In this document: positions 21,945 through 43,159 of the stretch, in pieces
How the letters are laid out: the number at the start of each line of letters is the position of its first letter
Position numbering within the stretch: the stretch's first letter is position 1
DNA from: Granulicella sp.
Lineage (GTDB): Bacteria > Acidobacteriota > Terriglobia > Terriglobales > Acidobacteriaceae
Direction of reading: 5' to 3'
Length of the DNA: 64,000 nt
Assembly: GCA_027452215.1 (NCBI GenBank)
Contig: DAIDGQ010000025.1
Location: 1 to 64,000, forward strand
Notes under the pieces: generated by a model
What the model was told of the DNA's origin: nothing
Database searches by the model: none
Seen by the model: the letters and a program-made list of their open reading frames with translations, nothing else
Program-made: the position numbers and the translations under genes

Positions 21945-23339
21945 ATGATGCAACATTGCCCCGTAAGTCTATGGAATTTATTGAGCGTCGGTAATAACGG
22001 ATCCAACTCCTTTTTGGGTAGCGCGGAATCCTATGTTGCGCAGGCGGCTTTAGTGCGTGGATCAATCCTCGGGGGGCGGGGAGAGGAGTTGCGCGGACGG
22101 TCGGTAGTCATCATGACGACCGATCAGTTGTCGACAGCGTTAGCTCTGTTTGAACTCGACGGCATTGCAAGGCGCATCGTTCTATACCCGAATGAACCAA
22201 CCCTGAACTATCTACCATTTGTGATCGAGGCAACGAATGCCGATGCTGTTGTGTCGGACCGGACAGATTTGCTGACACTCTCACTGCCGATTCGACATTA
22301 TGTGCCACAGGCACACACGATTCAATCCCACAGTTACGACCGGACCTCCCAGTATGAAACAGAATGGATCACGTTCACCTCTGGGACGACCGGGCCGCCG
22401 AAGCTTGTCGTGCACACGCTGCCGACTCTGACCGGAGCCATCCTGTCCGGAGGACCTCCGACGCAGAAGATGGTGTGGGGTACGCTGTATGACATTCGTC
22501 GGTTCGGCGGACTTCAGGTATTTCTTCGGGCGGCGCTGTCTGGCTCATCGCTCATTCTTTCGGGCCCATCGGAATCCATCGCAAGTTATCTGGCGCGGGC
22601 GGGCTCGCTGGGAATCACTCATATTTCGGGGACGCCTTCACAGTGGCGTCGCGTCCTGATGAGTGGAGCGGCCTCATTGATCAAGCCGGAGTATATACGG
22701 CTGTCGGGAGAGATCGCCGATCAGCCAATACTCAATCAACTTCGCTCTGTCTATCCGCAAGCAGCGATCACGCATGCCTTTGGGTCGTCTGAAGCGGGCA
22801 CGGTATTCGAGGTGAAAGATGGTGCAGCGGGATTCTCAGCGGGGCTGATTGGATGCGGCCCAAACGTGGAGATGAAGATCGAGGATGACACTCTGCGCGT
22901 GCGATCACGCTGGGCGGCAATACGTTACCAGGGTAACGGCTCTCCCGCACTAAAGTGCGTTGATGATTTTGTTGATACGGGCGACCTTGTAGATTTGCGT
23001 AACGGGCGGTATTACTTCGTCGGTCGGCGGGATGGACGAATCAACGTGGGTGGCCTCAAGGTTCACCCAGAGGAAGTCGAGGCGGTCCTCAATCTTCACC
23101 CTGATGTGCAAATGTCGCTGGCACGGGCGAAAAAGAGTCCCGTTACAGGGTCGATTGTGATTGCCGACGTAGTATTGACCTCGTCGGCGCAGACGGGAGA
23201 TCGCGACGAAGAGACACTCCAGAATGAGATTGTTGAGTTTTGTCGAAGGGCGCTCCCATTGCATAAAGTTCCGGCATTGATCCGATTCGTTCCTACCCTA
23301 GATCTTGCTGAATCGGGCAAGATGATTCGTAGGCTCTAG
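21945..23339 (+). CDS. ANL-family adenylate-forming enzyme (acyl-CoA ligase-like)
   Basis: Activates a carboxylic acid with ATP as an acyl-adenylate and may pass it to CoA or another acceptor. The core motifs are present: WITFTSGTTGPPKLVVHT (P-loop), ITHAFGSSEAGT, DTGDLVDLRNGRYYFVGRRD, the hinge segment INVGGLKVHPEEVE, and the C-terminal lysine motif SGKMIRR. At 464 residues it is shorter than most acyl-CoA synthetases (500-650), mainly in the N-terminal domain, and lacks any carrier domain. No signal peptide, so cytoplasmic. It is followed after about 150 bases by a HemB-like gene and a UbiD-like gene on the same strand, suggesting one pathway. The substrate cannot be told from the sequence. 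Confidence 0.85.
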   Translation: MMQHCPVSLWNLLSVGNNGSNSFLGSAESYVAQAALVRGSILGGRGEELRGRSVVIMTTDQLSTALALFELDGIARRIVLYPNEPTLNYLPFVIEATNADAVVSDRTDLLTLSLPIRHYVPQAHTIQSHSYDRTSQYETEWITFTSGTTGPPKLVVHTLPTLTGAILSGGPPTQKMVWGTLYDIRRFGGLQVFLRAALSGSSLILSGPSESIASYLARAGSLGITHISGTPSQWRRVLMSGAASLIKPEYIRLSGEIADQPILNQLRSVYPQAAITHAFGSSEAGTVFEVKDGAAGFSAGLIGCGPNVEMKIEDDTLRVRSRWAAIRYQGNGSPALKCVDDFVDTGDLVDLRNGRYYFVGRRDGRINVGGLKVHPEEVEAVLNLHPDVQMSLARAKKSPVTGSIVIADVVLTSSAQTGDRDEETLQNEIVEFCRRALPLHKVPALIRFVPTLDLAESGKMIRRL

Positions 23340-23492
23340 ATGCATAGCAACTTCTCCCAGAAGCCATTTTGAGGCGTGAATCGGCTAACGTGATTTAGAT
23401 CACATACTTCTTTAGCCAAATGCGAGATTCTTCCTAATCCAACCCCTGATCGGAAACATTTGCCTTTCAGTGAGCAAAAGAAAGGACCAAAC

Positions 23493-24536
23493 GTGGCATT
23501 CCCAACGCAGAGACTCAGAAGGCTAAGGACAAGTGAAGCGATTCGCGGTTTCGTCCGAGAAAACACTCTTTCAGCAAGCAACTTCGTTCTTCCTCTGTTT
23601 GCAGTCCCGGGTATGGGGATTAAACGAGAGATCGAATCGCTTCCGGGAAACTACCAGATGTCGATTGATTGCCTAGTAGAAGAAGCTGTGGAGGCGCGGG
23701 CGCTCGGCATCCCCGCGGTGCTCTTGTTTGGTGTACCGAACGAAAAAGATGAGTTCGGATCCGGTTCGCATGCTCATGACGGAATCGTTCAGGAAGCCGT
23801 GAGAGCCCTGAAGCAGGCGGTACCCAGCATCCTGGTCATCACCGATGTTTGCGCCTGCGAGTACACCGAGAGCGGACACTGCGGAATTATTCAGGACGGA
23901 TATCTCGATAACGACTTGTCGCTCGATCTGATCGCAAAGATTGCCGTGTCTCATGCGCAGGCCGGCTGCGATATGGTGGCCCCAGCCGCTATGCTGGACG
24001 GACAAATTCAAGCTATGAGGAAGGCGCTGGACTCACATGGTTTCCAGAACCTCCCAATCATGGCGTACTCGGCTAAGTTTGCCTCAAAGCTCTACGATCC
24101 TTTCTTCAAGCATGGGACACAATCAGCAGTTTCGTTTGGAGACAAGAGGACCCATCAGATGGACTTCTTCAACTCCGACGAAGCCATGCGAGAAATTGCG
24201 CTGGACATCGAAGAAGGGGCGGACATCGTCATGGTGAAACCAGCGCTCTTTTACCTTGACATCGTGTATCGCGCAAAGCAGGAGTTCCGGATGCCCCTTG
24301 CCGTTTACGACGTGAGTGGAGAGTACGCGATGATCGATGCCGCCGCCCGAATGGGGCGTCTTGATCGAGATGCGGTGATGCTTGAGGCCCTCTCCTGCAT
24401 GAAGCGAGCGGGAGCCGACATCATCGTTACGTATTTTGCAAAGCGCGCCGCTGAACTGCTGCGCAGCAAAGAACAATACGGTCAAGCGGAGACCGACTAT
24501 GATTCGCAGGAGACGGAGGGTATGAAAATCCGATGA
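23493..24536 (+). CDS. HemB-like enzyme (porphobilinogen synthase family) with altered active site
   Basis: The fold and both Schiff-base lysines of 5-aminolevulinate dehydratase are present: MAYSAKFAS (Lys195 from the GTG start) and MVKPALFYLDIV (Lys249), plus the zinc cysteines in DVCACEYTESGHCG and YDVSGEYAMI. However, the arginines that in E. coli (Arg205, Arg216) hold the A-side substrate carboxylate read Phe (YDPFFKH instead of YGPFR) and Lys (FGDKRTHQM instead of GDRK-YQM). The usual APSDMMDGR is APAAMLDGQ. So it may condense something other than two aminolevulinates. Start GTG 23493 has AAAGGA upstream; a TTG at 23460 gives 11 more residues. Its end overlaps the UbiD-like start by four bases. 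It could still be the housekeeping hemB, but these changes argue against that. Confidence 0.82.
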   Translation: MAFPTQRLRRLRTSEAIRGFVRENTLSASNFVLPLFAVPGMGIKREIESLPGNYQMSIDCLVEEAVEARALGIPAVLLFGVPNEKDEFGSGSHAHDGIVQEAVRALKQAVPSILVITDVCACEYTESGHCGIIQDGYLDNDLSLDLIAKIAVSHAQAGCDMVAPAAMLDGQIQAMRKALDSHGFQNLPIMAYSAKFASKLYDPFFKHGTQSAVSFGDKRTHQMDFFNSDEAMREIALDIEEGADIVMVKPALFYLDIVYRAKQEFRMPLAVYDVSGEYAMIDAAARMGRLDRDAVMLEALSCMKRAGADIIVTYFAKRAAELLRSKEQYGQAETDYDSQETEGMKIR

Positions 24537-25630
24537 CGGATCCGCCTGGGGAAACTAGACGAAACTCCTCTGCCGCCGCTGAACAGCAGGAACAACCGGG
24601 GGAGCAAGCAAGTCTTCGGGGCTTCATCGAGAGGATCGCTAAGGTCGAGCGACTCGTGCGTGTCGAGGAATCCACGCACTGGAGATTCGACATTGGAAGA
24701 ATCACGAGAGACAGCAAGGAACCGCTGCTGTTTGAGAACATCGCTGATTATCCGGGGCAGCGTGTTTTCACCAACGGGCTGCGCGATATTAGATTAATCG
24801 GGCTTGCTCTAGGTATGGAGCAGGAAGCCAGCCGCGAGGAACTCATCGCAGAAGTCAGGCGGCGCGCCTCTAATCCGTTCAATCCAAAGTTTGTCGAGAC
24901 TGGCCCGGTGCTGGGTAATACCGTCGAAGGAAGCCATCTCAACCTTATGGCCCTCCCAATCCCTCATTGGAATGAGAACGACTGCGCGCGATATCTTGGG
25001 ACCTGGCACCTCAACGTGACGAAGGATCCGGAGACGGACGCGCGTAACGTTGGTGTCTATCGAATGCAACTGCTGGGTCCGAATCAGGCTTCGGTGAATA
25101 CATCACCCGAGAGCCACCTGGCTCTGCATCTCGAAAAGTCGGAGCGTGAGGGCCGTGCACTTTCCATGGCCGTTGCCATCGGTGTCGGCGAAGCGATCAT
25201 CATGGCCGCGACTGCCGCTTGCCCCTATGGAATGGACGAATATGAGTTGGCGGGCGGTCTGCAACAAAGGGCGGTCGAACTTCTCCGCTGCCCCGGGGTG
25301 AACCTCGAGGTTCCAGCCAATGCAGAGATTGTCATCGAGGGATTCATCCATCCTCATATTCGAGTACAGGACGGTCCCTACTTCGATTACACCGGAACCA
25401 CGAACACAAATCGCGGAGCATTCCTGTTCGAGGCCACGCGGCTGATGTTTCGAAATGATCCGATCTTTCGCGGCACTTCGATCGGAGTCGCCGGTGCAGA
25501 GGATCATCAAATCTTCGCTTTGCTGGCGGAACTGCAACTCCTCGACTTTCACCGCTCCAGTGTCAAGAAGCACATCCAGGACAGCGTGCTGAAACAGCGT
25601 CTCCTTCGTTGGACTCGTGCAGGCACTTAA
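24533..25630 (+). CDS. UbiD-family decarboxylase, C-terminally short
   Basis: UbiD enzymes use prenylated FMN to remove or add carboxyl groups on aromatic or unsaturated acids. Recognisable parts are FIERIAKVERLVRV, LLFENIADYPGQRVFTNG, ARNVGVYRMQLLGPNQ (Arg177 of the cofactor motif), IVIEGFIHP, and DGPYFDYTGTTNTNRG. In the last, the usual Glu-Glu pair of EGPFGE is Asp280/Asp285. The protein has 365 residues against about 450-500 for UbiD and ends abruptly after KQRLLRWTRAGT. The normal third domain is missing, either by loss or because this is a short subfamily. ATG 24533 overlaps the HemB-like stop (ATGA), so the two are translationally coupled. A prFMN synthase (UbiX) is not in the window. 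Confidence 0.8.
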   Translation: MTDPPGETRRNSSAAAEQQEQPGEQASLRGFIERIAKVERLVRVEESTHWRFDIGRITRDSKEPLLFENIADYPGQRVFTNGLRDIRLIGLALGMEQEASREELIAEVRRRASNPFNPKFVETGPVLGNTVEGSHLNLMALPIPHWNENDCARYLGTWHLNVTKDPETDARNVGVYRMQLLGPNQASVNTSPESHLALHLEKSEREGRALSMAVAIGVGEAIIMAATAACPYGMDEYELAGGLQQRAVELLRCPGVNLEVPANAEIVIEGFIHPHIRVQDGPYFDYTGTTNTNRGAFLFEATRLMFRNDPIFRGTSIGVAGAEDHQIFALLAELQLLDFHRSSVKKHIQDSVLKQRLLRWTRAGT

Positions 25631-25738
25631 TCGAGCCGAAGAAGGTACTTTCCCAAGTCCCACTGAGGGCTCATCCGATGCGTCAGTGAAGAACTGAAGA
25701 ATATCGTGAAGGCACTTGACTGCCTGGGCCGCTGATTG

Positions 25739-26917
25739 TCAACGGGGTGGAGTCGTGGCAACGGACGCGGAGGGACGACGGTCGTGGGCATCCTGCTGGA
25801 GGTACGGGGCCAGATCTTCATACTGGTCCGTGGCTATGAAGTTCACGCCTGCAGCGATGGCCGCCTTCCACCTTAGGGCGGCGGCATCGATTGAACCGAA
25901 GTTGTAGTACTGACCCCAGCCTTGATCGCTGGCTGGAGTGAAGCCGTCAAGGGTGTAGAAGCGTATCCAATAGCCGAGGTTGTGAGCGTGATCAACCAAG
26001 GCTCGGAGGCGCGTGTCGTCAGCCTGGGTCCAGTCTCCTGCGTGATTCTGCCCTCCCTCTTCGACGGGATACCACGAGCTATTGACCCAGCGTCTGTAGT
26101 TGGTGGGACGCTCATGGAGTTGGCCCTCCGGGGAGGTAACGACTGCCCAGTGCATACGTTGCTGCAGCGACATGTCCTTAGGGGGCATGGGGTCGTGCGC
26201 TGAGCCGAAGATGCGCAGTTTGGCGCCGACCGGCACTTGATCGTAAAACACTCTTTGCTGATCATCGGAGCCTTCGGTGATCGCGAGGATAGGCTTGCGC
26301 TCGATGGGCGACAAGAGGTGGGGATCCGCTGTCTTGACGGCGGTGGAGAGCCATGGCTGATATTCACCCAAGAGCTGCCATACAGCGTTTAGGATCGCTG
26401 GCTGGTTGTCTTTGAAATCGAAGTGGAGGACGATGAGCGGCCACTCATTTTGTTTGTTCTGTGCGATGGCCTTGTCAATGACTGGCCTCACCTGTTCGAA
26501 GAAATAGTCTTGCAGAGTTGGCTCTTTGCCAGTGGGATTGGGGGTATGCGAGACAACGACGCGTCCCTTCCCTGTTGTCGGGTCAAGATACCAGGCAAGA
26601 TCCTGCTCGATCGAAACGGGAAACCCTGATCGCAGAGCCCGCTGGACTCGGTCGTTCCAACGGCCGTCGTAGGGATAACAGTTGTGCGCGTCCAGTATGG
26701 ACTGATTGTGATTGAGGAAATCGAGATCTGGAGCTTGCGCGGATGCAATCGATAGCGCCGCGGCAAGGAGCATACCTGCAATGAACGAGACGTACTTTTT
26801 AGATAACGCGGTGAGACGCGTTTGCTGACATCGGCTGGAGATAGAAAGCGCCGAAGAGTCGGCTTCTTTTTGACGATCGTCTGGTGGCTGGCAACGATGG
26901 CGGGTGATGAAAAACAT
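25739..26917 (-). CDS. Secreted PLC/GDPD-like TIM-barrel phosphodiesterase
   Basis: Probably splits a phosphodiester. After a long basic leader and a hydrophobic segment (FIAGMLLAAALSIASA, about 46-60), the mature part opens with ILDAHNCYPYDGRW (His78) and GFPVSIEQDLAWY (Glu104 and Asp106, the E-x-D metal pair), then VVVSHTPNP and WPLIVLHFDFKDN. It ends with the glycerophosphodiesterase-like GVNFIATDQYEDLAPYL. This is the PI-PLC/GDPD superfamily, in a branch often labelled only as phosphatidylinositol-specific PLC-like. AGGAG before ATG 26917 overlaps the stop of the PHP gene, eight bases away, so it is in one operon with the PHP phosphoesterase and TonB receptor. The substrate is unknown. 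Confidence 0.8.
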   Translation of the reverse strand: MFFITRHRCQPPDDRQKEADSSALSISSRCQQTRLTALSKKYVSFIAGMLLAAALSIASAQAPDLDFLNHNQSILDAHNCYPYDGRWNDRVQRALRSGFPVSIEQDLAWYLDPTTGKGRVVVSHTPNPTGKEPTLQDYFFEQVRPVIDKAIAQNKQNEWPLIVLHFDFKDNQPAILNAVWQLLGEYQPWLSTAVKTADPHLLSPIERKPILAITEGSDDQQRVFYDQVPVGAKLRIFGSAHDPMPPKDMSLQQRMHWAVVTSPEGQLHERPTNYRRWVNSSWYPVEEGGQNHAGDWTQADDTRLRALVDHAHNLGYWIRFYTLDGFTPASDQGWGQYYNFGSIDAAALRWKAAIAAGVNFIATDQYEDLAPYLQQDAHDRRPSASVATTPPR

Positions 26918-26925
26918 GGGGTCTC

Positions 26926-28395
26926 CTAGCGTGCGGGAAAGTTGATATAGATGGGATTGCCGAGCATAAGCAGTGTGCCTTGGGCGTCGCGGACCTCAGC
27001 ACGCAGCCAGTGGCGTCCGCTACTCGCGGTCCAATGAGCATGCAGGTTCTCATCGTTGCTTGAGATGCCCAGTGGAACTAGTGCTGGAGACTCGTGTCCA
27101 TCGACCAGCAGGTGAAGCTGATCGCCTGCACACGCGACAACATGGATGTTCAACGAGACGGGCATACCGTCAGTAGCGGTGAGGTCTTCGCCCATATTTG
27201 CGTGGCTTGAGCCTGCGGTGGAAGTCAGGTCAAGCAGCTTGTCTTGCGAGGAGGTTAGATCGATGAAGACGTGGCCATGGCGGATGCCGGCGAGAATGGC
27301 GGACACGGATAGTTCGCTTGCAGCGACGACCGTCGTTGGCCTGCCGATCGCGCCGGCCCCTCCTGCAGGCGTCAGCGCGTCGTGATTGTCACTGCCTCCG
27401 ATGGCGGTGAGGCGATGGCCTGCTGCAATTTCTTTATCCCAGAGATCAGCGCTTGAGAACATGATGACGCCGCCATTGATTACCTCTATACCGGTGAAGA
27501 GGCTCATGTCCACGGGCGTCGGCGGCGTCCAGCCACAACCCATACAGCCCTCGCCAGTGGGTGCGTCTGCGTGATTGATGGAGGCGATGGCACCTTTGGC
27601 GCGGACGTCCCGTAGGATTGCGTTGATGTCGTGCCCATCGTGGTCGATAGCGCGATAGTCGATGAACTGGGTTGTGCCGAAGACATTAAGGTGACCCCAG
27701 AAGGTCGTGATTTCGCGGGCTGGGATGAGAAGCACTGTGTCGAAGTAAGGCTGCAGTTCTCGCATGGCATCGAACTGCGAAACGGTGTTGTGATCTGAAA
27801 TGGCGATGAAGTCAAGATTGCGCGAGGCCGCTGCCTGCACCGTAAGAAAAACAGGGCAAGGAACTCGGCGACCAGCTTGGCTCTTACAACTTCCGTCGCT
27901 ATGCGCGGTATGCATATGTAGGTCACCACGATACCAACGCGGCCCGGGAGTGAGCGGTTCGGACGCAAAGCTGCTGTCCTCCTCCTGGGGGTTGAAGCGA
28001 ATCTGTGCACGGTAGTGTGATACAACTCCGGCGCGAATGTTAGGCACAGAGAGGATTAGCTTCCAACGACCCGCCGAGATTTCTCCCGGCAGATACGACG
28101 GCGTCGCATCTGTTTCGCTGAGGGTGAAATGGGTCTTATTGCCTCCGCTGGCGCCGCGAAAACGGTATGGGTCGGCGATACCTAGATCGATCGTTGTGTG
28201 TTGCTCATGACCGGTGTAACTGAAGTCGACACTGAGGCGATGCACGTCCTCTGGTACCTGGAAAGGAACGTCGATGTAGGTTTTGTTCTGCGCGCCCGTT
28301 ACAGTGCCCTCGAGAAACAGCGAGGGTTGAGTCGACTGGGCGCTGAGGATCGGCGCAAGGAATAGCCACAACAGGAACCAAGCACCGGACTTCAT
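26926..28395 (-). CDS. Secreted PHP-domain phosphoesterase (CehA/McbA family)
   Basis: Metal-dependent phosphoesterase. A signal peptide (to about residue 20) is followed by an N-terminal beta-sandwich (residues 25-135, VPFQVPEDVHRLSVDFSYTG) and then the PHP domain: WYRGDLHMHTAHSDGS (His160, His162, Asp167), DFIAISDHNTVSQ, AREITTFWGHLNVFG, ASINHADAP and AIGGSDNHDALT. A C-terminal beta-rich part follows (HLLVDGHESP, GRHWLRAEVRD). This matches CehA/McbA-type hydrolases that act on varied organic phosphate esters. It lies between the receptor and PLC-like genes in one operon. A pathway for scavenging an organophosphate outside the cell is the simplest reading. Confidence 0.85.
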   Translation of the reverse strand: MKSGAWFLLWLFLAPILSAQSTQPSLFLEGTVTGAQNKTYIDVPFQVPEDVHRLSVDFSYTGHEQHTTIDLGIADPYRFRGASGGNKTHFTLSETDATPSYLPGEISAGRWKLILSVPNIRAGVVSHYRAQIRFNPQEEDSSFASEPLTPGPRWYRGDLHMHTAHSDGSCKSQAGRRVPCPVFLTVQAAASRNLDFIAISDHNTVSQFDAMRELQPYFDTVLLIPAREITTFWGHLNVFGTTQFIDYRAIDHDGHDINAILRDVRAKGAIASINHADAPTGEGCMGCGWTPPTPVDMSLFTGIEVINGGVIMFSSADLWDKEIAAGHRLTAIGGSDNHDALTPAGGAGAIGRPTTVVAASELSVSAILAGIRHGHVFIDLTSSQDKLLDLTSTAGSSHANMGEDLTATDGMPVSLNIHVVACAGDQLHLLVDGHESPALVPLGISSNDENLHAHWTASSGRHWLRAEVRDAQGTLLMLGNPIYINFPAR

Positions 28396-28422
28396 AAGAA
28401 GCGATCCTCTGAGAAAGGTCGA

Positions 28423-28452
28423 CCCGGAAGACTTGTCGAAATTGCTTCCGGG
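28423..28452 (-). terminator. Intercistronic hairpin between receptor and PHP gene
   Basis: Perfect 8-base stem CCCGGAAG (28423-28430) / CTTCCGGG (28445-28452), 14-base loop, in the 75-base gap between receptor stop and PHP start. On the minus strand it is followed by TCGACCTTTCTC. It may partly terminate transcription or protect the receptor message. Confidence 0.62.
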
Positions 28453-28470
28453 CCGTTGTTTGTGACGTTG

Positions 28471-31400
28471 CTACCAGTTGATGCGAATCGCAAATTGCAT
28501 GACACGTGGATCAGCCGAAAGCGAGGTAATGGCACCGACACCACCATTGCTGGCGTTGCCGCTGGGCTGGCCGAAAACGGGATGGTTGGCGACATTGAAG
28601 ACTTCCCAACGTAGCTCGGCGTTGAAACTCTTGGTGAACAGGATATTCCTGTAAAGTGCGAAATCGAAGAGTTGTGTCCGTGGTCCAAGCAGCGTGTTGC
28701 GGCCCACGTTGCCGATAGTATATTGACCGGGATCAGCAAACGGCGTGATGAGACCCGAGGAGGCTCCTCCGCAATTGGGGTTGCTTGCGTCATAGAACCA
28801 GCAACTCGTCTTCTTGAGGTAATGGACAGGGGCCACTTGATTTGGGGGAGCCACGGCGAATCCGTAGGCATCCAGCAAGGGGCTTTCGCTGGACCAGGCT
28901 GCCTGGAACGGGTGGCCGGAGTAGAAGGTGTAGACACCGGAAGTGGTCCAGTTGCTAAGCAGCCAGGAAGCAGGTCCGGACTGAAGCATGGCCTTGCCGG
29001 GACCGAAGGGGAGTTGGTAGACATAGTTTGCAGAGATGCGATGGCGGACGTCGAAGTCGCTGTTGCCATACCATGCGGCGGGGTTGCGGCCGTTCGGCGC
29101 GCCACCGGAGTTGCTTTCCAGTTCTTCGGGAGCATTGTCTAGCGAGTGCGAGTAGGTGTACGCCGCGCTGACGCTCAGGCCGTTGTGTAATGCGCGAGTG
29201 AGGCTGGCCTGGAGACCGTGATAGTTGCTGAAGCCGACAGCATCGAGGTACTCGATCTGACCGAAGTTGGCATAGGGTTTGGTTCCGCTGGGAGCAGAGG
29301 GGCTGGTGACGACCTGATTGCCCGAGATGAGAACCTGGTTGTAGTCGCGGAGTACGTCGAGGTTGGTGGAGGGGGTTCCGACGTAATCCAACTCGGCGAG
29401 CCAGGCCGACGTGAGCTGACGCTGGACTCCAATGCTCCACTGCTGAACGGTCGGAGCACCGATATTGGGATTGACGGCACGGATGTGAAAGTTTTGCAAT
29501 TGGTTGAGATTAATCGTGCTGGAATCAAGAAAATTTGAGGGGAATCCAACAGCAGGTGTGAGTACAGGAGCAACGTTGCTTGCGATTGTTTTGTTGATCA
29601 GGTTCGGCGGATTGAGTGCGAGTTGGTTTTCGCTACCGATGCGCTCGAGAGAGGTGTAGTAGATGCCGTATCCACCATGCAGTACCGTCCTTTCATTCAG
29701 GCTATAGGAGATACCAAAGCGTGGTGCGAAGTTGGTGGTATTGGGATTGACGAGAGCGCGGTCGGCAAGTGAGCCTGCTTTTGCGAGGACCAGCGATCCG
29801 GCTCCGGAGGGATTGAAGTTCGCCATGCGGTTTTGCCCTTCGACAGCGGGCGCTGCAAAGTCATAGCGAAGCCCGAGGTTTAGGGTCACTTTTGGACTCA
29901 CCTTCCAATCGTCTTCAATAAATCCCGAAGCCATCCAGAGGCGTTGGTCGACAAAGAATACGTTGGTCAGCTGAGTGTACTGTGGAGCGCCGAGCAAACC
30001 GTCCGCGTAGGAGAGCCCTCCCGTAAAGATGCCCGTAAAGTTTAGATCGCCGCGGGTACCTGGTTCGTCCTGAAAGATGTTGCGCATGGGGAAAAAGACG
30101 GTTGCGCCGAATTTCAGATTATGATTTCCGCGCGTCCAAGAGAGCGTGTCGTCGTACTGATAGAGCATGGGGACTTGCTTCTTGGGAAGATAGTCGGGCG
30201 AACCGAGAAAGGTCTTATTACTGAATTGCGTGAGAGGGACGCCACCGCCGATGGCTGGATTGTTGGGGATTCCAGGAATGAAAGTGCCGGCAAGTTGCGG
30301 CAGGCTGAAGGACTGTTGCTGCGCGTACGAGTAGTCACGCACCCAACCGAAGCGGAAGTCATTCACCATGGTCGGCTTGACGATGTGGGTCCATCCAATG
30401 ACGACGCTGGCACCTTTGAGGATCTGGTTACCCCACGCAGATGTCGCTGTGCCGTCCGCGAGCCCACCAAAGTAGCCGGGGATATCGCGGGTGCGATTGA
30501 AGTAGTTGAAGCGCGTAAAGATCGTGTCGGCTGACGAGGGCGTCCAATCGACGCGTGCGTCGTAGCTGCTGTTGAAGTCAGTCAAGGCTCCGGTGCGCGA
30601 GTAGTTGTTCAGCTCCGGGAAGGTAGCACCACCGCTTTTGAAATTTGGTTCCGGGAAGAGTGCCATCAACTTGCTGACTGCTGTATCGATTCGATCTGTG
30701 GGGATCTGGTTGTTTGCGAAGGCGGTGCAGCCACTCTTCACGTTGTACGGCGTGGCGCAGGTCAGCGGATCGTAGACAGTTGGATAAGGAGAGATGCCAT
30801 CGATCGCCGCGGCCGCAGGGCTGAAGTCGCCGATGCGCTCATTGTCCAAGGGTACTGTGAATATACGTGATACGCCCTGCTTGACTCGAGTGGCTTCGTA
30901 GTTGAAGAAGAAGAAGAGATGGTCATGCAGGATGGGGCCTCCGATGCTACCGCCGAACTGGTTCTGATTGTCCTCCGCCTTCTTTGCCTGAGTCTGCTTT
31001 GAGAAGTAGTCGAAGGCATCGAAATACTGGTTGCGAACAAACTCGTACGCCGTGCCGTGAAATTGATTAGTTCCACTGCGTGTGTTGACCGAGACTACGG
31101 CTCCGGGAGCTCGTCCGTACTCTGCGGAGTACGGGTTGGTGATGACGTTGAACTCGGCGATGACGTCGACCGATGGATGAGCAGCCTCGGTGCTCAACTC
31201 CTGAACATTCTCAGAGAACGTGTTGTTGTCGATGCCATCGAGAATGAAGTTGTTCTGCAAGGAGTGAACGCCGTTCACATTGAAGTCCCCGGTACGACCC
31301 GCCGAAGTGGAACCGCTCTGATTGGTATACCGGTTGATCTGAACGCCGGGAACGGTGCGGAGGAGATCATCCCAGTTGCGGAGGAAGAGCGGCGTGCTCG

Positions 31401-31899
31401 CAATGATGTCGGATGTTATGACGGTGCTGATAGAAGCGTCGTCGCGTGACAGACCGGGGCCAGGCCCAACGACCTCAACTGTGTCACTGGCCGATCCTAC
31501 CTTCACGTGGAAGTCGCGGCGCAGATGAGTTCCGACGTTGATGGTCGCCGGCTCCTTGATCGTAGAGAATCCATTGGCCGAAACGGTCACCGTGTACTCG
31601 CCAATTGGAAGATCGGGGAAGATATAGTCACCATCGGTTCCACTCTGCACGGTCCGCGTGTAGCCTGTACTCGCAGAGGTAACAGTAAGGGTTGCGCTGC
31701 GCACGACGGCTCCGGACGGATCGGTCACAAGACCACTCAAGTTTCCTGTGTTCACCTGCGCGAAGCTGCCTAGGGGAACAAGAAAACACAGCGCGAAGAT
31801 GAAGCCGATGCACCAGTAGGAATAGATAGTATTTGCGCAGCCTGTTGCGGCTTTTCGCTTGTCGAGAAGGCTTCGCATTGCTAATGGACCAGATTGCAT
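28471..31899 (-). CDS. Oar-like TonB-dependent receptor (PHP/PLC operon)
   Basis: Outer-membrane importer. After a hydrophobic N-terminal segment (IGFIFALCFLVPLGSFAQ), residues about 45-125 carry the carboxypeptidase-regulatory-like domain (NLSGLVTDPSGAVVRSATL, YIFPDLPIGEYTVTV). Then come the plug (FILDGIDNNTF, GRAPGAVVSVNTRSGTNQF) and a barrel ending FAIRINW. It has 1142 residues. ATG 31899 has AGGAG at 8 bases; a longer frame starts at 31971. The gene is divergent from a membrane-bound winged-helix regulator across 328 bases and is followed by two phosphoesterase-type genes. That suggests the ligand is a phosphorylated or phosphodiester compound too large for porins (inference). Confidence 0.9.
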   Translation of the reverse strand: MQSGPLAMRSLLDKRKAATGCANTIYSYWCIGFIFALCFLVPLGSFAQVNTGNLSGLVTDPSGAVVRSATLTVTSASTGYTRTVQSGTDGDYIFPDLPIGEYTVTVSANGFSTIKEPATINVGTHLRRDFHVKVGSASDTVEVVGPGPGLSRDDASISTVITSDIIASTPLFLRNWDDLLRTVPGVQINRYTNQSGSTSAGRTGDFNVNGVHSLQNNFILDGIDNNTFSENVQELSTEAAHPSVDVIAEFNVITNPYSAEYGRAPGAVVSVNTRSGTNQFHGTAYEFVRNQYFDAFDYFSKQTQAKKAEDNQNQFGGSIGGPILHDHLFFFFNYEATRVKQGVSRIFTVPLDNERIGDFSPAAAAIDGISPYPTVYDPLTCATPYNVKSGCTAFANNQIPTDRIDTAVSKLMALFPEPNFKSGGATFPELNNYSRTGALTDFNSSYDARVDWTPSSADTIFTRFNYFNRTRDIPGYFGGLADGTATSAWGNQILKGASVVIGWTHIVKPTMVNDFRFGWVRDYSYAQQQSFSLPQLAGTFIPGIPNNPAIGGGVPLTQFSNKTFLGSPDYLPKKQVPMLYQYDDTLSWTRGNHNLKFGATVFFPMRNIFQDEPGTRGDLNFTGIFTGGLSYADGLLGAPQYTQLTNVFFVDQRLWMASGFIEDDWKVSPKVTLNLGLRYDFAAPAVEGQNRMANFNPSGAGSLVLAKAGSLADRALVNPNTTNFAPRFGISYSLNERTVLHGGYGIYYTSLERIGSENQLALNPPNLINKTIASNVAPVLTPAVGFPSNFLDSSTINLNQLQNFHIRAVNPNIGAPTVQQWSIGVQRQLTSAWLAELDYVGTPSTNLDVLRDYNQVLISGNQVVTSPSAPSGTKPYANFGQIEYLDAVGFSNYHGLQASLTRALHNGLSVSAAYTYSHSLDNAPEELESNSGGAPNGRNPAAWYGNSDFDVRHRISANYVYQLPFGPGKAMLQSGPASWLLSNWTTSGVYTFYSGHPFQAAWSSESPLLDAYGFAVAPPNQVAPVHYLKKTSCWFYDASNPNCGGASSGLITPFADPGQYTIGNVGRNTLLGPRTQLFDFALYRNILFTKSFNAELRWEVFNVANHPVFGQPSGNASNGGVGAITSLSADPRVMQFAIRINW

Positions 31900-32227
31900 G
31901 ATGGCGCTCCTGCTGAGCATCCTCGAGGACGCTTCGCTAGGCATACGGTCAACTTTCTCGAGAGATGGCAACAGGGTTTACCTGGCCTCAACCGGTGTAT
32001 ACCCCTGTGTATAGAGAGCACATAACTGCAGATTCCATGATAGATAGGCACATTGTGAAATGTTGGTAAAACGGCCTCAACAAGGCTTGTATTGAATCCG
32101 TATTCATCCAGCATTTATATGTGAAAGTTACCCTCGGATCACAAATAACTGATCGCACGAATCACCGACAAAGTGTTTCCGACAGTACGAGCCTCTGAGA
32201 CCTCAACTTCAACTCATGGAGTTTTGA
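31900..32227. promoter_or_regulatory. Divergent promoter region, receptor versus regulator
   Basis: 328 bases that must hold both promoters. A direct repeat GTGTATA occurs at about 31996 and 32004 (GGTGTATACCCCTGTGTATA), a candidate regulator site. I see no certain -35/-10 pair. The plus-strand leader ends with GGAG before ATG 32228. Confidence 0.4.
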
Positions 32228-33643
32228 ATGATCAACGGACGATTTGAGCTTTCGTCCTTGGAATCACCAGCACTACTGATCGAGGACGACGAGCGTTGGC
32301 AACTGGTGCAGCGTATCGTTGCGAGTCGGCGATTTCTGAGGGCTCCCCTGCTTTCGAGATTCCTCATGCACGTTTGCTCGCAGGCGCTCCTAGGTCGCCC
32401 TCATGAGATCACGGAATACCGGATTGGCGTTCACGTTTTCGATCGACCACGGAACTATCGGACGGTGGAGGACAACATTGTCCGTAACTATGCAAGGCAG
32501 TTGCGTAGACGGCTTGCCGAGTACTCCGCGGATGAGGGCAAGAATGAGCCGTATCGTATTGAAATACCGCTGGGTGGCTACGTCCCGGTATTTTCAGCTC
32601 AGCCTACACATTCCCGAGAAGATGAAGCCAAGCATGAGATTCATACATTGCCGCAACCAGTGATCGAAGCTAGCACTATTCCAAAGATGTCTGTTGAATC
32701 TTCGAACGAGACACCGGAGGCGCACTCACCGCAACGCTCAATCAAAATTGGCCGGCCCGCACAGATTGCGCTGCTGCTCATGTATTCCGCTGTGCTTGTG
32801 GGAATCACTGCGACCGTCCTGGCACACGTTCAAGCGACATCACGCGCACTGCAACCGACATCGTTATTATGGGCGGCTCTTTTCCGAGCACCGATGAGCA
32901 CCTTTGTGGTGCCAGCCGATAGTGGCTTCAACCTCATCGAGGACCTTTCAAGGAGGCAGGTTGCGCTTGGCAGCTATCTAAACGGAGATTATGTTGCGCT
33001 GCCGCTGCCTGCGATGGATGAGCATAGTCAGGCCGACTTGAGGACGCAGCAGTTCACAAGCTTCGTTGATCTGCAAGTAGTCTCTGAGATATCGCGGCTG
33101 CCTGAGGTAGATCCGCAGCGCCTTTTTGTGCGCTTTCCGCGAGATCTCCGCATGGACGATTTGAAGACAGCGAACGCCATTCTGATCGGATCAATCGGCA
33201 GCAATCCATGGGCAGAACTTGCGCAACGTAATCTCAACTTTCGGATTGCATACAGCAACGAGATGCAAGAGGCGTGGGTGGAAAATACTCATCCCAGGCC
33301 CGGCGAGGCGAAGCGCTACGAGAGCCTGTGGACGGAGCCCGCGCATCCTACCTATGCAGTCATCGCTTACCAGCCCAACCTTGCGGGGACAGGCCATATC
33401 CTTCTGATTGTGGGCTTGGACGTCGCAGGAACCCAGGCTGCTGCTGACGCGCTTTTGCGTGGTGAAACGCTTATCCCTGTGATGCACGCAGCCATGCGAC
33501 CCAATGGCGAACTGGGCCCCTTTGAGGTACTGCTGCAATCCGCAAGCATCGGTCCCAACGCTGTAACTACACAAGTTATCGCATATCGCATCGCAGACTC
33601 AGCGAAGCCTGTGAACTCCACGATTGCTCAGTTGAATCCATGA
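32228..33643 (+). CDS. Membrane-anchored winged-helix-like regulator with periplasmic sensor domain
   Basis: Likely a one-component transmembrane transcription regulator. Residues about 25-122 (RFLRAPLLSRFLMHVCSQAL, EITEYRIGVHVFDR, TVEDNIVRNYARQLRRRLAEY, RIEIPLGGYVPVF) form a domain common in acidobacterial genomes and reminiscent of the OmpR/CadC winged helix, with its closing G-Y-x-P-V-F strand. A linker follows, a single membrane helix spans about 178-200 (IALLLMYSAVLVGITATVLA), and residues 201-471 would lie in the periplasm. That part has no motif I can name (DSGFNLIEDLSRRQVALGSYL, ANAILIGSIGSNPWAEL). GGAG precedes ATG 32228. Divergent position next to a TonB receptor suggests it senses the imported compound. 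DNA binding is inferred. Confidence 0.72.
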   Translation: MINGRFELSSLESPALLIEDDERWQLVQRIVASRRFLRAPLLSRFLMHVCSQALLGRPHEITEYRIGVHVFDRPRNYRTVEDNIVRNYARQLRRRLAEYSADEGKNEPYRIEIPLGGYVPVFSAQPTHSREDEAKHEIHTLPQPVIEASTIPKMSVESSNETPEAHSPQRSIKIGRPAQIALLLMYSAVLVGITATVLAHVQATSRALQPTSLLWAALFRAPMSTFVVPADSGFNLIEDLSRRQVALGSYLNGDYVALPLPAMDEHSQADLRTQQFTSFVDLQVVSEISRLPEVDPQRLFVRFPRDLRMDDLKTANAILIGSIGSNPWAELAQRNLNFRIAYSNEMQEAWVENTHPRPGEAKRYESLWTEPAHPTYAVIAYQPNLAGTGHILLIVGLDVAGTQAAADALLRGETLIPVMHAAMRPNGELGPFEVLLQSASIGPNAVTTQVIAYRIADSAKPVNSTIAQLNP

Positions 33644-33695
33644 TCGACATCGACTTCACTCACCCGCTGCGCTGAAGAGCCGCTGATGATTCCGG

Positions 33696-35240
33696 TCAAT
33701 TGCAGGCGGGGTTGTTGGCTCCTGCAAACGCAAGGAAGGTGATGCTGGCGGCGGGGAGGTGGACTTCACCTTCGGGCGCTGCCACGCCGGTGAGGGTCGG
33801 GACGTCGCCGCTTGACGAGAGCGTCAGGTCGACACCATTGAGTTGTACAGTGTGGCTCATCAGATCGCGGGCTGTCATGGTGTATCGGATCGCCTTCTCA
33901 GGGATGCGTAGAGACTGCATGTTGGTTCGGTTGAGATTGAGAGCGAGCATCGTGACACCGCCCGGCCGGTCCTTCATGCATTGAGCATAGAGATGAATGG
34001 AGCTCGATGGTGCAGAGCCTGCATCGAGCACGGTGGTACCCATGGTGTTGTGCCAGAGGAGCGCCGCCCAGTAGTTGGGGCGCGGAGCCAGCGTCTTCTC
34101 GTCGAGAAGCCCGTAGTCGCTGGCTGCAAGCGTATTGTGCATCACCACCTTCACACTGCGGCGTGCGAGCTGGCCGAGTTGGTCAAGGTAGCGGAAGCTG
34201 TCAAGATAGGCTGAAGCCCAGCGGTCACCGCCGCAAGCAGCCTCACCCGTTTCAGTGACCCACATCGGTTTGCCCGGAGCGTACGTGTCACGCAGACCAG
34301 CGTAGAAAGCTTCCACTCTACCGGTCCGGGACAACCAGTCTTCGGAGAGCTCTGCTTCTGGGCTGGTGGTGCTCTTCGATCCCATGGCAGCGCCACAACG
34401 CTCAGAGATTGCTCCATAAAAGTGATAGGAGAAGACGTCGACAGCATTCGGGCCCATGCTCTGCAGAAGCTCCTTCGATGGAAGAAGTTTGACCGGAATG
34501 AAGTCAATGCCTTCGCCGACGGAGCCGGGACCAAGAAGCAGGGCATGAGGCTCAGCCTTGCGAAAGAACGGAGCGAAGACCGCAAAATCTCGGCCGTAGG
34601 CGGCTGCGTCATAGCCCTTGGGCACGCCTGCGGCAGTGGCGAAGGTGGGTTCGTTCATGAACTCCGCGGCAGCAATGGAGCCACCGATGGAGCTTGTGTA
34701 GTCAAGGAACTTTCGGGCCTCCACGGGCGTCCAAGTACCGGCAGCATCGCGCGTACCTGCGCTGGTGGAGAAGGAGGTTACGATCTTCGCATCGGTAGCC
34801 TTGGCGAATTCGACAACGCCGTTCCATTCCGCACGCGTGAGTACGCCTCCGAAGCCCACTGGAGGATTCGCCGGAGCGGCTGCATCGGAGTCTTGAAAGT
34901 ACACGGTATTGGCCCATGTACCCGAGACGCGTAGGTAGGCCGGAGCGAGGGCGGCGGCAAGTTTGCGAAGGCGAGGGTCTGAGAGGTCGATCGGAGTGCG
35001 TTGCTCAAAGAGTGCAGGATCGATGCCTCCCGGGGTGCCGGAGAGGCTGGGGGTCGCGGCCGGCCTGTTGGCGTACGGCCTCCAAAAGCGACCGCCGATG
35101 ACTTCAACCATCTCCACGTTGTAGGACTGGAAGCGAGGATCTACGCTTCCAATTTTCGGCATCGTTGCGGGGCTTTGCTGAGCGACGGCGGGGATCGCGA
35201 CGGTGGTCAAGAAAAGAGCTAGTGCAAGCGTTGCCTTCAT
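33696..35240 (-). CDS. Secreted GH79-like beta-glucuronidase/heparanase-family hydrolase
   Basis: Retaining glycosidase probably removing glucuronic acid or a related uronate. Signal peptide ends near AVAQ. The TIM barrel shows LAPAYLRVSGTWAN, the acid/base block AAEFMNEPTF and the nucleophile block MWVTETGEAACGGDRW, and the barrel later reads VVMHNTLAASDYGLLD. A C-terminal beta-sandwich follows (TMTARDLMSHTVQLNGV, LPAASITFLAF). This order matches GH79 and the related heparanase group. Length 514. I chose ATG 35240 (MKATLALALF) as it begins a clean signal peptide; a longer frame starts at 35279. It lies downstream of a TonB receptor with a strong hairpin between, and converges on the regulator gene. 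Confidence 0.85.
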   Translation of the reverse strand: MKATLALALFLTTVAIPAVAQQSPATMPKIGSVDPRFQSYNVEMVEVIGGRFWRPYANRPAATPSLSGTPGGIDPALFEQRTPIDLSDPRLRKLAAALAPAYLRVSGTWANTVYFQDSDAAAPANPPVGFGGVLTRAEWNGVVEFAKATDAKIVTSFSTSAGTRDAAGTWTPVEARKFLDYTSSIGGSIAAAEFMNEPTFATAAGVPKGYDAAAYGRDFAVFAPFFRKAEPHALLLGPGSVGEGIDFIPVKLLPSKELLQSMGPNAVDVFSYHFYGAISERCGAAMGSKSTTSPEAELSEDWLSRTGRVEAFYAGLRDTYAPGKPMWVTETGEAACGGDRWASAYLDSFRYLDQLGQLARRSVKVVMHNTLAASDYGLLDEKTLAPRPNYWAALLWHNTMGTTVLDAGSAPSSSIHLYAQCMKDRPGGVTMLALNLNRTNMQSLRIPEKAIRYTMTARDLMSHTVQLNGVDLTLSSSGDVPTLTGVAAPEGEVHLPAASITFLAFAGANNPACN

Positions 35241-35301
35241 TATCGGCCCTGACTGAGAGGAGAGGAGTGCTGGACCCACCTCAATTGTGTGCTATGAAAG
35301 A

Positions 35302-35335
35302 GGCCTGTTTCTACACGCGCAGTGAGAAACAGGCC
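35302..35335 (-). terminator. Intercistronic hairpin between receptor and GH79 gene
   Basis: Perfect 11-base stem GGCCTGTTTCT (35302-35312) / AGAAACAGGCC (35325-35335) with a 12-base loop, in the 126-base gap between receptor and hydrolase. On the minus strand TCTTTCAT follows. It could be a leaky terminator or a message-stabilising end. Confidence 0.68.
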
Positions 35336-35366
35336 CTGAGTACGGGATTGAATCAGTTTGGTTGAG

Positions 35367-38300
35367 CTAGAAGTTGAGCGTCGCGGACAATTGCAAAGCA
35401 CGCGATGCGCCGGCGCCGGTCACCTTGCCGAAGGTGGAGTCCGTCAGGTTGGTGTCAGGATTGTTGAACACCGGATGGTTCAACACGTCGAATGCATCGA
35501 CCCTGAATTGCAGGTCTACCGACTTATACAGTCGGAACGTCCGGGACATTGCTGCGTCGAAGGTTGCCGAGCCGGGTCCGGCATAGACATTTTTCCCCAT
35601 ATTGCCGAGCGCCGGTCCGGACGGCTGAGAAAATTTCGAGGTATCAAACCACAGGCTGTGGGTACCGATACCCTTCAACTTTACAAAGGGTCCATTTTGG
35701 TTTGGGACCTGGGTTGTCCCTGGAGCGTTCAACTGGCTACCACTCGCCGTAAAGAGCAGCGGCGTCCCGGTTTGGAAGAAAACGAGTCCGCTCACCTGCC
35801 ATCCTCCAGCCACTACACCGGCGATCCCATTCTGCAGGAAGGTTGATCCCTTGCCGAATGGAAGCGCATAGATGAAGCTGTTCGAAGACGTGATCGTGTG
35901 GTTGAAAGCGAGAGGAGAATAGTCGCGGTGGGGGTCAATATAGAAGTTGAATCCAGCAAGGCCGCCTCCGCTTGAGAGGTACCCCATTGCCTTCTGATAG
36001 GTGAAGGCAGAGGTGAACTCGAGCCCCTTATCAAATCGATGCGTCAACCTGGCTTGGAGAGAGTTGTAATTCGACGTGGTCTCCTTCGGCAGCAACTCGA
36101 TCGTGGCCGTCGTTCCATAGAGGTTGTAGTACGGTTGTCCCTTCGCACCCGCTCCAGCGACGAAACCAGCATTCAAGTTATAATTGCCGGGAATGAACCT
36201 GCCCTCGTTGCCAACGTAGGAGACGTCGAGCACCCAGGACCCGCCGAACTGCTGCTCGACTGTCACGTTATAGGACATGACCTCCGGATCCCGGTAGTTC
36301 AAGTTCACTGAAGTATAGTTCTGATTTTTCGTCCCAGGGATGATCCCGTCAGACGGGATCTGAGTCGGGGGAATGGTGGGGAAGCCCTTCGACAGCGTCG
36401 CTGGCGTACCATCAGGCAGAAGCGCGGGAGTATAGCTGCTCAGAGGCTCGAACGCCGCATTCTGGCGGACCGGAAAGTTGTACGCATAGTTGTTGTCCTG
36501 GAAGGGCGTTCGGCTGATACCAAACCCTCCTCGCACCACAGTTTTATCGGTGGCTCTAAAGGCGAAGCCGAGACGTGGTTCGAAGTCCGTCCCATTGAAC
36601 CGCATGCCAAGGTTATTCGGCACGTTACCGTAGCCCGAGACGTTTAGAGTGTTCGTTGCGGGATCGTACTGCGAGAAGCCGCCCTTAGCTGAGGGTACCG
36701 CCGGAGGATAAAGCTCCCAACGAATACCGTAGGTCAGGGTAAGCTTCTGCGTCGCGACCCAGGTGTCCTGGATGAATCCGAAGTACAGTGTTTGCCTCCA
36801 CGACGCAGAGTGGACGTTCAGATCGCGCCCGACTTCGCTAGGGAGATCCAGGAGGAAACTGGCAAAGTCGTTCGAGAAGCTCGTCTTGTTGCCAGACTTG
36901 TTGAGGCCCGTCTGACCATCGCGATAACGGAAGACGCCGCGTGGGCTGAAGGTCTGACCTTGCGTCAGGTCATCGCGCACACGTCTCAACTCTCCACCAA
37001 ATTTGATCGAGTGATTGCCCAGGATCTTGGTCCAGTTATTCACTACATCGATGTTGGTCTCTGCACGTATCCATGGGAGACTGGCGCTATATCCCACCAG
37101 CGGAGAAGCGAACCCCGCAATATCCATCCCTACCAGGCCGCTTGTGAACTGATCAAGATTGACTCCGGGAATCCCAAGTGTCGTTGAATCGCTCTTTCCA
37201 TAGTCCGCGGGTGACGCGGTATTTCTGTAGTGGTCGACACCGCCCCGCAGCTCGGTGAAGAGTTTTGAGGTGAAGATATGCGTGTACTCCAGCGCGCCGG
37301 TATAGACCGTATTAACGCCGTTTCCTTCGAAGCCTCCCGCAACCGGTCCGCCGGCCTGGCCAAAGATAGGGGCCTGTAAGGTGTTCGCCCTTTGCCAACT
37401 GAAGCGTCCCGTTAACCGATCTTCCCCGCGCAATTGCTGATCGACTTTTGCGTCGTAGCTGGTCACGTCGGTTTGGAAACCGGTGTTGGCTTGGTAGTTA
37501 TTATTGAGGGTCGCACCCGGAACATTTGGGAGAGGCACAAGCGCCAGGATCTTCTGCGCAGTAGGACTCAACCGGCTAGCCGGAATTACATTTGCCACTC
37601 CATTCGTCACAAACGGCGATCTTCCAGAGCCATCTGGAGCGCCGGTGTTGGGGTCGTAGATAGTAGTCGGACCTGCACTCAAGTCGCCGCTTCGGAAAGC
37701 CGCGGTGGGCACGGTCCAAATGGAGAACTGGCTGGCGTGGTTGCTGTAACGTAGAAAATCGCCAAAAAAGAAGGTCCGGTTTTTAACGATAGGACCGCCC
37801 AGCGTGGCTCCGTAGTAATTATTGGTCGACCGCGGAAAAGCGCCTGTGTTGTTGAAGTAAGTCCGAGCTGCCAGAGCGCTTATCTGGTTGAACTCATAGA
37901 CTGACCCATGAAAGTTATTCGTGCCTGACTTCAAGGTAACGTTGGTCACAGCGCCAGCCGACCTGCCAAACTCAGGCGCGTAGTTGCTGGTTTCCACGTC
38001 AACCGTCGCGATCGCTGCAGCCGGAGGGATATACACCTGCAGCAGTCCGGTGCGCTCATTGTCGTCAATACCTTCAAATTGCATATTGTTCGAAAGCTCT
38101 GACTGACCATTGACCTGAAACGACTGCGAGTTCTGTGCGTCGAAGAAGGAAGAGTGGTCATATATAGGCTTGCTTACACCCGGAACCAGAGACTCCAAGG
38201 CTTGAAAATTCCGTTGCGCGCCAACTGGAAGATCTTCGACCTGCTTCTGATCGATCTGCGCCGTAACATCCGCGCGGTCCGTTTGTAGCAATGCGACATC

Positions 38301-38729: not shown

Positions 38730-39128
38730 TTTATATGGCCTCGAACGGAAGGTAGTCTCCCTACTCGATTGCCGCATTCCGGAGCTTCAACGGAGATGCA
38801 GCGAGGAGGTCGGGGTGCAATGACACGCAACAACAATCGCGACAGGTGAATGCGAGGAGAGTGCAAATACAGCCCCGCATTGTCCTGCTATCAAGAACGG
38901 TGGCGAATATACGGAAGGAATTGGACAGGTGTCAAGCCCATAAAACAATGAGTCTGAGTCCCGCAGACTATTTTGTTGTCACTTGCTAGGAAGTGCCCTA
39001 AACGAGCTCCAAGACAAGTGTGGATTTATGTCGGAGATGGCCGATCATGTTGACCATTGGAACCTAAATCAAAAGGTTTAGAGAGGGTGCTCGCCGAACA
39101 TAGTGAAATAGTGCTATGCTTCCCCCCC
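38730..39128. promoter_or_regulatory. Divergent intergenic region, receptor versus beta-propeller gene
   Basis: About 400 bases holding both promoters. An inverted repeat AGTCTG (38951-38956) / CAGACT (38963-38968) is followed by ATTTTGTTGT on the plus strand and looks like a small terminator or attenuator hairpin. No gene is visible. Confidence 0.4.
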
Positions 39129-40136: not shown

Positions 40137-40158
40137 TTCCCAGATATTTCTAAACTTA

Positions 40159-40194
40159 CGGTAATTCCAATTACCGAAACAAACCGGATATAGT
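40159..40194 (+). promoter_or_regulatory. Operator palindrome and promoter before the Tat oxidoreductase
   Basis: CGGTAATTCCAATTACCG (40159-40176) has perfect 8-base arms around two bases, too tight for a hairpin but ideal for a dimeric repressor. TATAGT (40189-40194) is a likely -10, placing the palindrome over the -35 region. It is about 40 bases before the start codon. I did not see a second copy in the window. Confidence 0.62.
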
Positions 40195-40216
40195 TTCAAC
40201 TCACAACGGAGATAAT

Positions 40217-41539
<1,323 letters not shown>

Positions 41540-41624
41540 AGACAACGCTTCCCTGCGCAGCAATTGGGTTGCTAAGCGATACAGAACGATCTAAACAAAC
41601 ACTAAGCGTAATGAGAGGCCTTTG

Positions 41625-42509: not shown

Positions 42510-42535
42510 CGTTGAACATGGAAAGGAAGTTGCCT

Positions 42536-43003: not shown

Positions 43004-43159
43004 ACTTTGGATAGTTTACAGGGTCTGCTAGCCTCTCACATTGATTCGTAAAGATCGACAGTGTCAGGAGAATATTCCTTCGAATCATTCAATCTCGTTG
43101 CCGCAGACTTCCGAAAGGCAGTCAAATTCAATCATCTTGAACGACCAAGGAGTCGCATT

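Follow-up and report, generated by a model that had tools for sequence, protein, structure and literature searches.

How are the TonB-dependent receptors of soil Acidobacteria controlled? Genomes of the Acidobacteriaceae contain dozens of these outer-membrane importers (23 to 51 OMP_b-brl_4 matches per genome in the eight genomes of this family that we searched), and we came across no study of their regulation. A locus of Granulicella sp. (assembly GCA_027452215.1, contig DAIDGQ010000025.1), lying within the stretch of 64,000 nucleotides analysed here and called the window below, raises this question in a compact form. On the minus strand, an operon encodes a TonB-dependent receptor, a PHP protein of the CehA/McbA type and an enzyme with a predicted PI-PLC/GDPD fold. 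Divergent from it, on the plus strand, lies the gene of a membrane protein of 471 amino acids. We consider it likely that this protein controls the operon that it faces, as a dedicated one-component transmembrane transcription regulator of the ToxR/CadC-like kind. The computed basis is the architecture of the predicted model, the pairing of regulator and receptor genes, the enrichment of half-sites between them and, within the discovery set, the way in which these sites covary with the recognition helix. DNA binding, the direction of control, the response to a ligand and the action of both enzymes on the substrate imported by the receptor are inferred.

The initial annotation had described a receptor operon with two exported enzymes opposite a one-pass membrane protein, separated by 328 bp, and our check of the open reading frames (ORFs) confirmed this layout, with identical coordinates for the regulator, the PHP protein and the PLC-like protein (Table 1). 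The receptor ORF spans 28471-31971 (-), and translation probably begins at the ATG at 31899, which is preceded by an AGGAG; this AGGAG-ATG pair is common to close orthologues. The receptor start at this position therefore leaves a divergent region of exactly 328 bp. Gaps of 75 bp and 8 bp separate the receptor ORF from the PHP ORF and the PHP ORF from the PLC-like ORF, all three being on the minus strand. The receptor matched OMP_b-brl_4 (777 bits), CarboxypepD_reg and Plug in Pfam. Promoter and terminator scans stayed at shuffle level.

For comparison we used two sets of related loci. In the family set of 95 loci, 95 winged-helix ORFs were found, 61 with the sensor type of the window protein and 34 with another sensor. 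The named set of 62 loci was obtained by scanning contigs for two peptide patterns taken from the window's clade, and its members are labelled as Acidobacteriaceae, as other Acidobacteriota/Terriglobia or as an unnamed bacterium. One of them, L131 of the culturable relative Paracidobacterium acidisoli, is an orthologous locus with regulator, TonB receptor and PHP protein. The two sets overlap (L031 and L131, for instance, are one gene) and are not independent. With a simple ORF caller, no regulator ORF was obtained at 5 of the 95 loci (L032, L076, L081, L085 and L093) and at 3 of the 62 (L149, L161 and L187). Family scans were made with an alignment that combines the window protein with 37 of the other 60 sensor-type regulators (38 members); structure prediction and residue conservation relied on the window protein and 48 of the 60 regulators of the named loci (49 sequences).

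The AlphaFold2 model of the regulator (pLDDT, the predicted local distance difference test, 85.8; pTM, the predicted template modelling score, 0.61) contains a well-predicted N-terminal domain, with block-mean pLDDT values of 94-97 over residues 21-120, and a confident separate domain over residues ~208-460. Residues 22-123 were aligned by VIA-align with the DNA-binding domain of SaeR (4u88; Z 6.9, root-mean-square deviation (rmsd) 3.2, 80 residues, 20% identity). In addition, 13 of the 38 family members, a set that includes the window protein, matched the OmpR-type winged-helix model PF00486 with E values of 1 or lower (best 1.2e-4). When the regulator family was compared by hhalign with 14 OmpR-type domains of related genomes (PF00486 domains extracted from 14 of 30 loci), alpha3 and the C-terminal hairpin fell in register. 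Together, these results give moderate support to an OmpR-type winged-helix DNA-binding domain, in line with the winged-helix-like fold first proposed; we regard the evidence for the fold as fair to good and that for homology as moderate. By analogy with OmpR-type domains, alpha3 is the predicted recognition helix, and D82, V85, R86, A89, L92, R93 and R95 are invariant in the 49 aligned sequences. A single predicted transmembrane helix, with a topology read from the sequence, separates this presumably cytoplasmic domain from a presumably periplasmic one. For the latter, initially annotated as a domain of unknown type, the model points to a BcsB-like, GH67/GH115-N-like fold. Residues 208-459 aligned best with BcsB (6yg8_B; Z 10.9, rmsd 3.4, 169 residues, 10% identity). 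They also resemble the N-terminal parts of GH67, GH115 and GH84, with Z 7.3-8.6, and an S-layer anchor of Methanococcus (9fsa, Z 8.3). The S-layer model PF05124 was weakly matched in 5 of the 38 family members (best 0.03).

The pairing of this regulator with TonB receptors is conserved. Among the 61 sensor-matched regulators, which were picked regardless of receptors, 34 have a divergent receptor gene within 1 kb and 5 at 1-3 kb. Receptors on the same strand downstream were tallied separately from divergent ones; they were found within 1 kb in 7 cases, and in 7 further cases the receptor lay elsewhere. Of the 34 regulators with another sensor, on the other hand, only 5 are divergent from a receptor within 1 kb and 22 are without a receptor in the stretch, while 2 of 286 random genes have such a neighbour (20 arbitrary 20-kb regions of three genomes). 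Among the named loci, a set biased by its selection for closeness to the window's clade, 49 of 60 have a divergent receptor within 1 kb, and for another 5 it lies at 1-3 kb. Furthermore, we searched new genomes, where stretches of ~6 kb upstream and 1.5 kb downstream of each regulator were taken. Of the 48 unique regulators found there, 7 were excluded because they shared 90% identity or more with the discovery set. The other 41 have a divergent receptor within 1 kb in 21 cases, at 1-3 kb in 2 and a same-strand downstream receptor in 4. Sensor and receptor distances over 61 pairs, taken from a hand-made genome list that includes only part of the held-out loci, correlated with r 0.59, above the maximum of 2000 within-genome shuffles (0.457). 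Regulator and receptor therefore travel together as pairs.

The divergent region of the window shares with seven close orthologues a conserved block, GTTTAC...GTATACCCCTGTGTA. Across 84 divergent regions, GTGTATAC occurred in 26, compared to 0.3 in shuffles. The pattern G[GT]GT[AT][AT]AC (GKGTWWAC) was found in 28 of 66 non-redundant divergent regions (1.35 sites per kb), whereas shuffled regions gave a mean of 4.2 and a maximum of 10. Upstream of other TonB receptors, 4 of 36 regions had the pattern (0.33 per kb), as did 4 of 35 regions upstream of other-sensor regulators (0.29 per kb) and 11 of the 384 remaining intergenic regions (0.15 per kb); coding DNA contained 0.07 per kb. The whole window has 6 sites where chance predicts 5.2, and three of the six lie in the divergent region. 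There, the first site, GGGTTTAC, is followed by a 12-bp tandem of CCGGTGTATA and CCTGTGTATA; across the divergent regions the commonest core spacing is 21-23 bp. Helix-phased half-sites of this kind are usual for OmpR-type proteins. These half-sites look like the control site of the window's branch of regulators, and we treat them as a putative operator. When we searched for a motif of the other recognition-helix classes, only weak k-mers were obtained.

In the mechanism that we propose, the cytoplasmic winged helix would bind the tandem GTGTATAC-like half-sites at 31974-32013, and the periplasmic BcsB/GH115-N-like domain would sense the incoming substrate or its breakdown product. The signal would cross the single transmembrane helix without a phosphorelay or sigma/anti-sigma proteins, and the regulator would change how strongly the receptor, PHP and PLC-like genes, perhaps also its own gene, are transcribed. 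We favour activation as the direction of control. The distance from the first core to the receptor start codon (median 86 bp at 19 measurable loci; 79 bp from the receptor ATG in the window) is compatible with activation and repression alike.

Table 1. Coordinates, within the window, of the regulator, the facing operon and the region between them.
Feature	Position	Strand	Basis
Regulator, 471 amino acids: winged helix, transmembrane helix, periplasmic sensor	32228..33643	+	ORF, predicted model, homologues
Predicted OmpR-type winged-helix domain, residues 20-125	32285..32602	+	AlphaFold2, SaeR alignment, weak PF00486 in relatives
Predicted recognition helix alpha3, residues 84-101, IVRNYARQLRRRLAEYSA	32477..32530	+	AlphaFold2 helix; invariant residues; half-site covariation in discovery set
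Predicted transmembrane helix, residues 176-205	32753..32842	+	Hydrophobic helix in model and sequence
Predicted periplasmic sensor domain, ~residues 208-460	32849..33607	+	Model alignments; periplasmic side inferred
Divergent regulatory region, 328 bp	31900..32227		Receptor start shared with orthologues
Putative operator: GGGTTTAC (31974), CCGGTGTATA (31992), CCTGTGTATA (32004)	31974..32013		Enriched half-sites, orthologue alignment
TonB-dependent receptor (CarboxypepD_reg, Plug, OMP_b-brl_4), ~1142 amino acids from ATG at 31899	28471..31899	-	Pfam; start from orthologues
PHP-domain protein, CehA/McbA family, probably exported	26926..28395	-	NCBIfam NF038032; signal-like N-terminus by eye
PI-PLC/GDPD-fold protein, probably exported	25739..26917	-	AlphaFold2 model; signal-like stretch by eye

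Several results weigh against a dedicated DNA-binding regulator or add nothing in its favour. The window protein has no Pfam or NCBIfam match, and a PF00486 search of its own genome misses it. The SaeR alignment is at a Z-score (6.9) for which the alignment tool itself cautions. The local hhalign comparison reached E 3.6e-4 once, yet with a probability of 36.7%; the global probability was 0.7%, and a comparison with 6 sequences gave 0.4%. The regulator-family profile found nothing usable among PDB sequences (an RpaA fragment, E 0.44), and Foldseek gave no match with E under 0.001 for the regulator model. No receptor was found in the fetched stretch for 8 of the 61 sensor-type and 10 of the 41 held-out regulators, and a mirror-tree test limited to within-genome pairs gave no signal of regulator-receptor coevolution (p 0.36). 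In favour of such a regulator, the half-site was present in the discovery set with 28 of 36 R[NTS]YAR helices and with 0 of 30 others, a grouping that was drawn after seeing the data, with a motif derived from the same 84 regions and with both following phylogeny. A split by RNY gave 25 of 33 against 3 of 33. Without the aligned orthologues it gave 21 of 29 against 3 of 33, which is not independent because those regions also entered the k-mer count. In the small held-out set the numbers were 2 of 5 R[NTS]YAR against 4 of 36 others (p 0.15 with duplicates removed, p 0.042 with 3 duplicates included).

One could argue that the winged helix has a role other than DNA binding and that a different regulator of receptor promoters uses the half-sites. 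The missing Pfam-level match and the held-out counts by helix class would fit such a role. However, the half-sites are rarer upstream of receptors that have no such regulator, and in the discovery set they follow the class of the recognition helix, so that we consider this explanation very unlikely. The pairing data bear on a different alternative, in which the periplasmic domain contacts the plug or the CarboxypepD_reg domain of the receptor and reports its occupancy, with no free ligand bound. FecA/FecR is a precedent for such reporting. It is the sensor domain and not the winged helix alone that predicts pairing, and the pairs are inherited together, both of which agree with a contact of this kind. 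On the other hand, no STN signalling domain is listed for the receptor, and the within-genome distances show no coevolution. CarboxypepD_reg is, in addition, also present on a second receptor of the window, beside which no such regulator was found. We therefore hold the sensing of receptor occupancy to be unlikely. That second OMP_b-brl_4 receptor is followed by a GH79N-type protein in a minus-strand pair (33696-38777), convergent with the regulator gene, and a search of the window with the family profile gave no further regulator.

What the operon handles is a separate matter. The initial annotation saw a complete sense-import-cleave system for an unusual phosphate ester. Completeness is not supported, because the operon as called consists of three genes only, without an inner-membrane transporter. 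As for the 'PLC-like' label, the third protein has no support from Pfam, NCBIfam or PDB sequences, yet its AlphaFold2 model (pLDDT 81.9) fits the PI-PLC/GDPD fold. This model aligned best with the Ca-dependent PI-PLC 3h4w (Z 16.2, rmsd 3.8, 243 residues, 15% identity), and GDPD and PLD enzymes tie with it (Z 15-15.6); Foldseek alone returned mixed TIM barrels and was uninformative. H78, E104, D106 and H124 are invariant in 13 sequences (the window protein and 12 of 15 PLC-like ORFs). A set of H, E-x-D and H is the motif of the PI-PLC/GDPD superfamily, and the model thus predicts a TIM barrel of this fold carrying that set. Translation of this protein probably begins further downstream than its ORF does. 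The PHP protein scores 251.9 bits against the CehA/McbA model NF038032 (cut-off 80); PADLOC gave one weak Ppl match for it.

Could the regulator then control a cassette that scavenges inositol or glycerol phosphodiesters? At the window locus a phosphodiester is possible, because the PLC-like enzyme keeps a phosphodiesterase-type fold, and a phmmer search over the 62 named loci found 20 PHP ORFs and 15 PLC-like ORFs, the latter in 14 loci, with several directly behind the receptor. Other regulator-receptor pairs carry different cargo, however. We scanned 74 of the 80 downstream proteins that were unclassified and had a length of 250 amino acids or more; the first 25 of 119 families included 11-12 GH92, 9 TPR, 5 MGH1-like glycoside hydrolases and 3 PAP2 proteins. 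Moreover, cehA has been published as the gene of an oxamyl (carbamate) hydrolase (PMC4850150). A phosphodiester cassette under the control of this regulator is therefore doubtful, and the unusual phosphate ester named at first is not supported; in our judgement, a glycan or glycan conjugate is at least as likely a substrate as a free phosphate ester. Further along the window, a plus-strand gene run (39057-48435) resembles a sugar-utilisation island, with genes that we take to encode beta-propeller, Gfo/Idh-like, sugar-isomerase-like, ROK-like and GH31-like proteins. On the other side of the operon lies a UbiD-family ORF of 365 amino acids (24533-25630, +) with UbiD_N and Rift-domain matches. 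A C-terminal UbiD domain, usual in this family, is absent from its Pfam list, and the ORF is possibly truncated at its 3' end.

A dedicated one-component regulator, as we propose for this operon, would not be a single case. Of 60 genomes searched from the window's own family, 37 encode homologues (E up to 1e-8), and at least 26 of 199 Acidobacteriota genomes contain a match, a lower bound from a search that scored at most 8 candidates per genome. The regulator type had been called frequent in Acidobacteriota, which holds for the family and less so across the phylum. Ten of the 61 sensor-type ORFs lie in a single genome (G035). Two sensor-type regulators a few kb apart in one genome (L191 and L206) suggest local duplication. 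Ten of the 34 other-sensor regulators were scanned, with malectin in 4, beta-propeller repeats in 2 and TPR in 4. The winged helix is therefore a module with exchangeable sensors, some of which, such as malectin, are of a carbohydrate-binding type. The malectin fusions are at L062, L063, L065 and L111, and the last two are also divergent from a TonB receptor. PD40 beta-propeller repeats are fused to the same winged helix at L040 (4426-6636) and L077 (7881-10145); the former shares its strand with a sensor-type regulator at a distance of ~1.3 kb.

Soil Acidobacteria thus apparently hold a large, undescribed family of inner-membrane-anchored regulators, many beside one outer-membrane importer each. 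In agreement with the initial view of an uncharacterised regulator, searches of the open-licence full-text literature for the family, the genes around it and the fold of its sensor gave no description of the family (titles, abstract starts and some passages). As far as we have seen, an ordinary-looking operon points here to a widespread, receptor-paired family that is new as a family, of a kind that is already known. Tentatively, and as a possibility that we rate somewhat below even, many TonB receptors of Acidobacteriota may use a third route of regulation, in addition to sigma/anti-sigma pairs and to regulators of the kinase type. On this route, private one-component regulators in the membrane with interchangeable sensors (BcsB/GH115-N-like, malectin and others) would read the glycan or conjugate imported by the neighbouring receptor, each clade matched to its own tandem operator via the recognition helix. 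Receptor-paired regulators with a predicted operator would offer a handle for assigning substrates to receptors.

FecI/FecR sigma/anti-sigma pairs and HTCS/SusR are established regulators of TonB-receptor loci. As in these systems, there is one regulator per receptor locus and the imported substrate is presumably sensed; unlike them, the window regulator is a single polypeptide. A Pfam scan of the nine proteins encoded from 21945 to 38777 found no sigma factor, anti-sigma factor or kinase. The receptor also differs from FecA-type transducing receptors, as no N-terminal STN domain is listed for it (Pfam, E up to 1). To our knowledge, the predicted sensor fold is unlike any in the ToxR-like group, and it would add a new fold to membrane-tethered one-component regulation. 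ToxR-like receptors combine a cytoplasmic OmpR-type winged helix, one transmembrane helix and a periplasmic sensor in one polypeptide (PMC5430869). The window protein has the same predicted three-part order as CadC, ToxR and TcpP, and the enriched half-sites suggest that it may likewise bind and regulate promoters from the membrane, whereas its divergent winged helix and its TonB-receptor neighbour set it apart. A survey of transmembrane regulators used Pfam profiles and reports Acidobacteriae as richer in them than most (PMC10269533). Since PF00486 misses the window protein in its own genome, this survey probably missed the family, which suggests that Pfam-profile surveys undercount membrane-tethered regulators. 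BcsB combines flavodoxin-like and carbohydrate-binding-like domains (PMC11379886). The sensor model resembles the flavodoxin-like domain of BcsB, the N-terminal domains of GH67, GH115 and GH84 and the Methanococcus S-layer anchor in fold, and differs from them in sequence (8-20% identity over the aligned parts) and in that no catalytic role is expected for the sensor.

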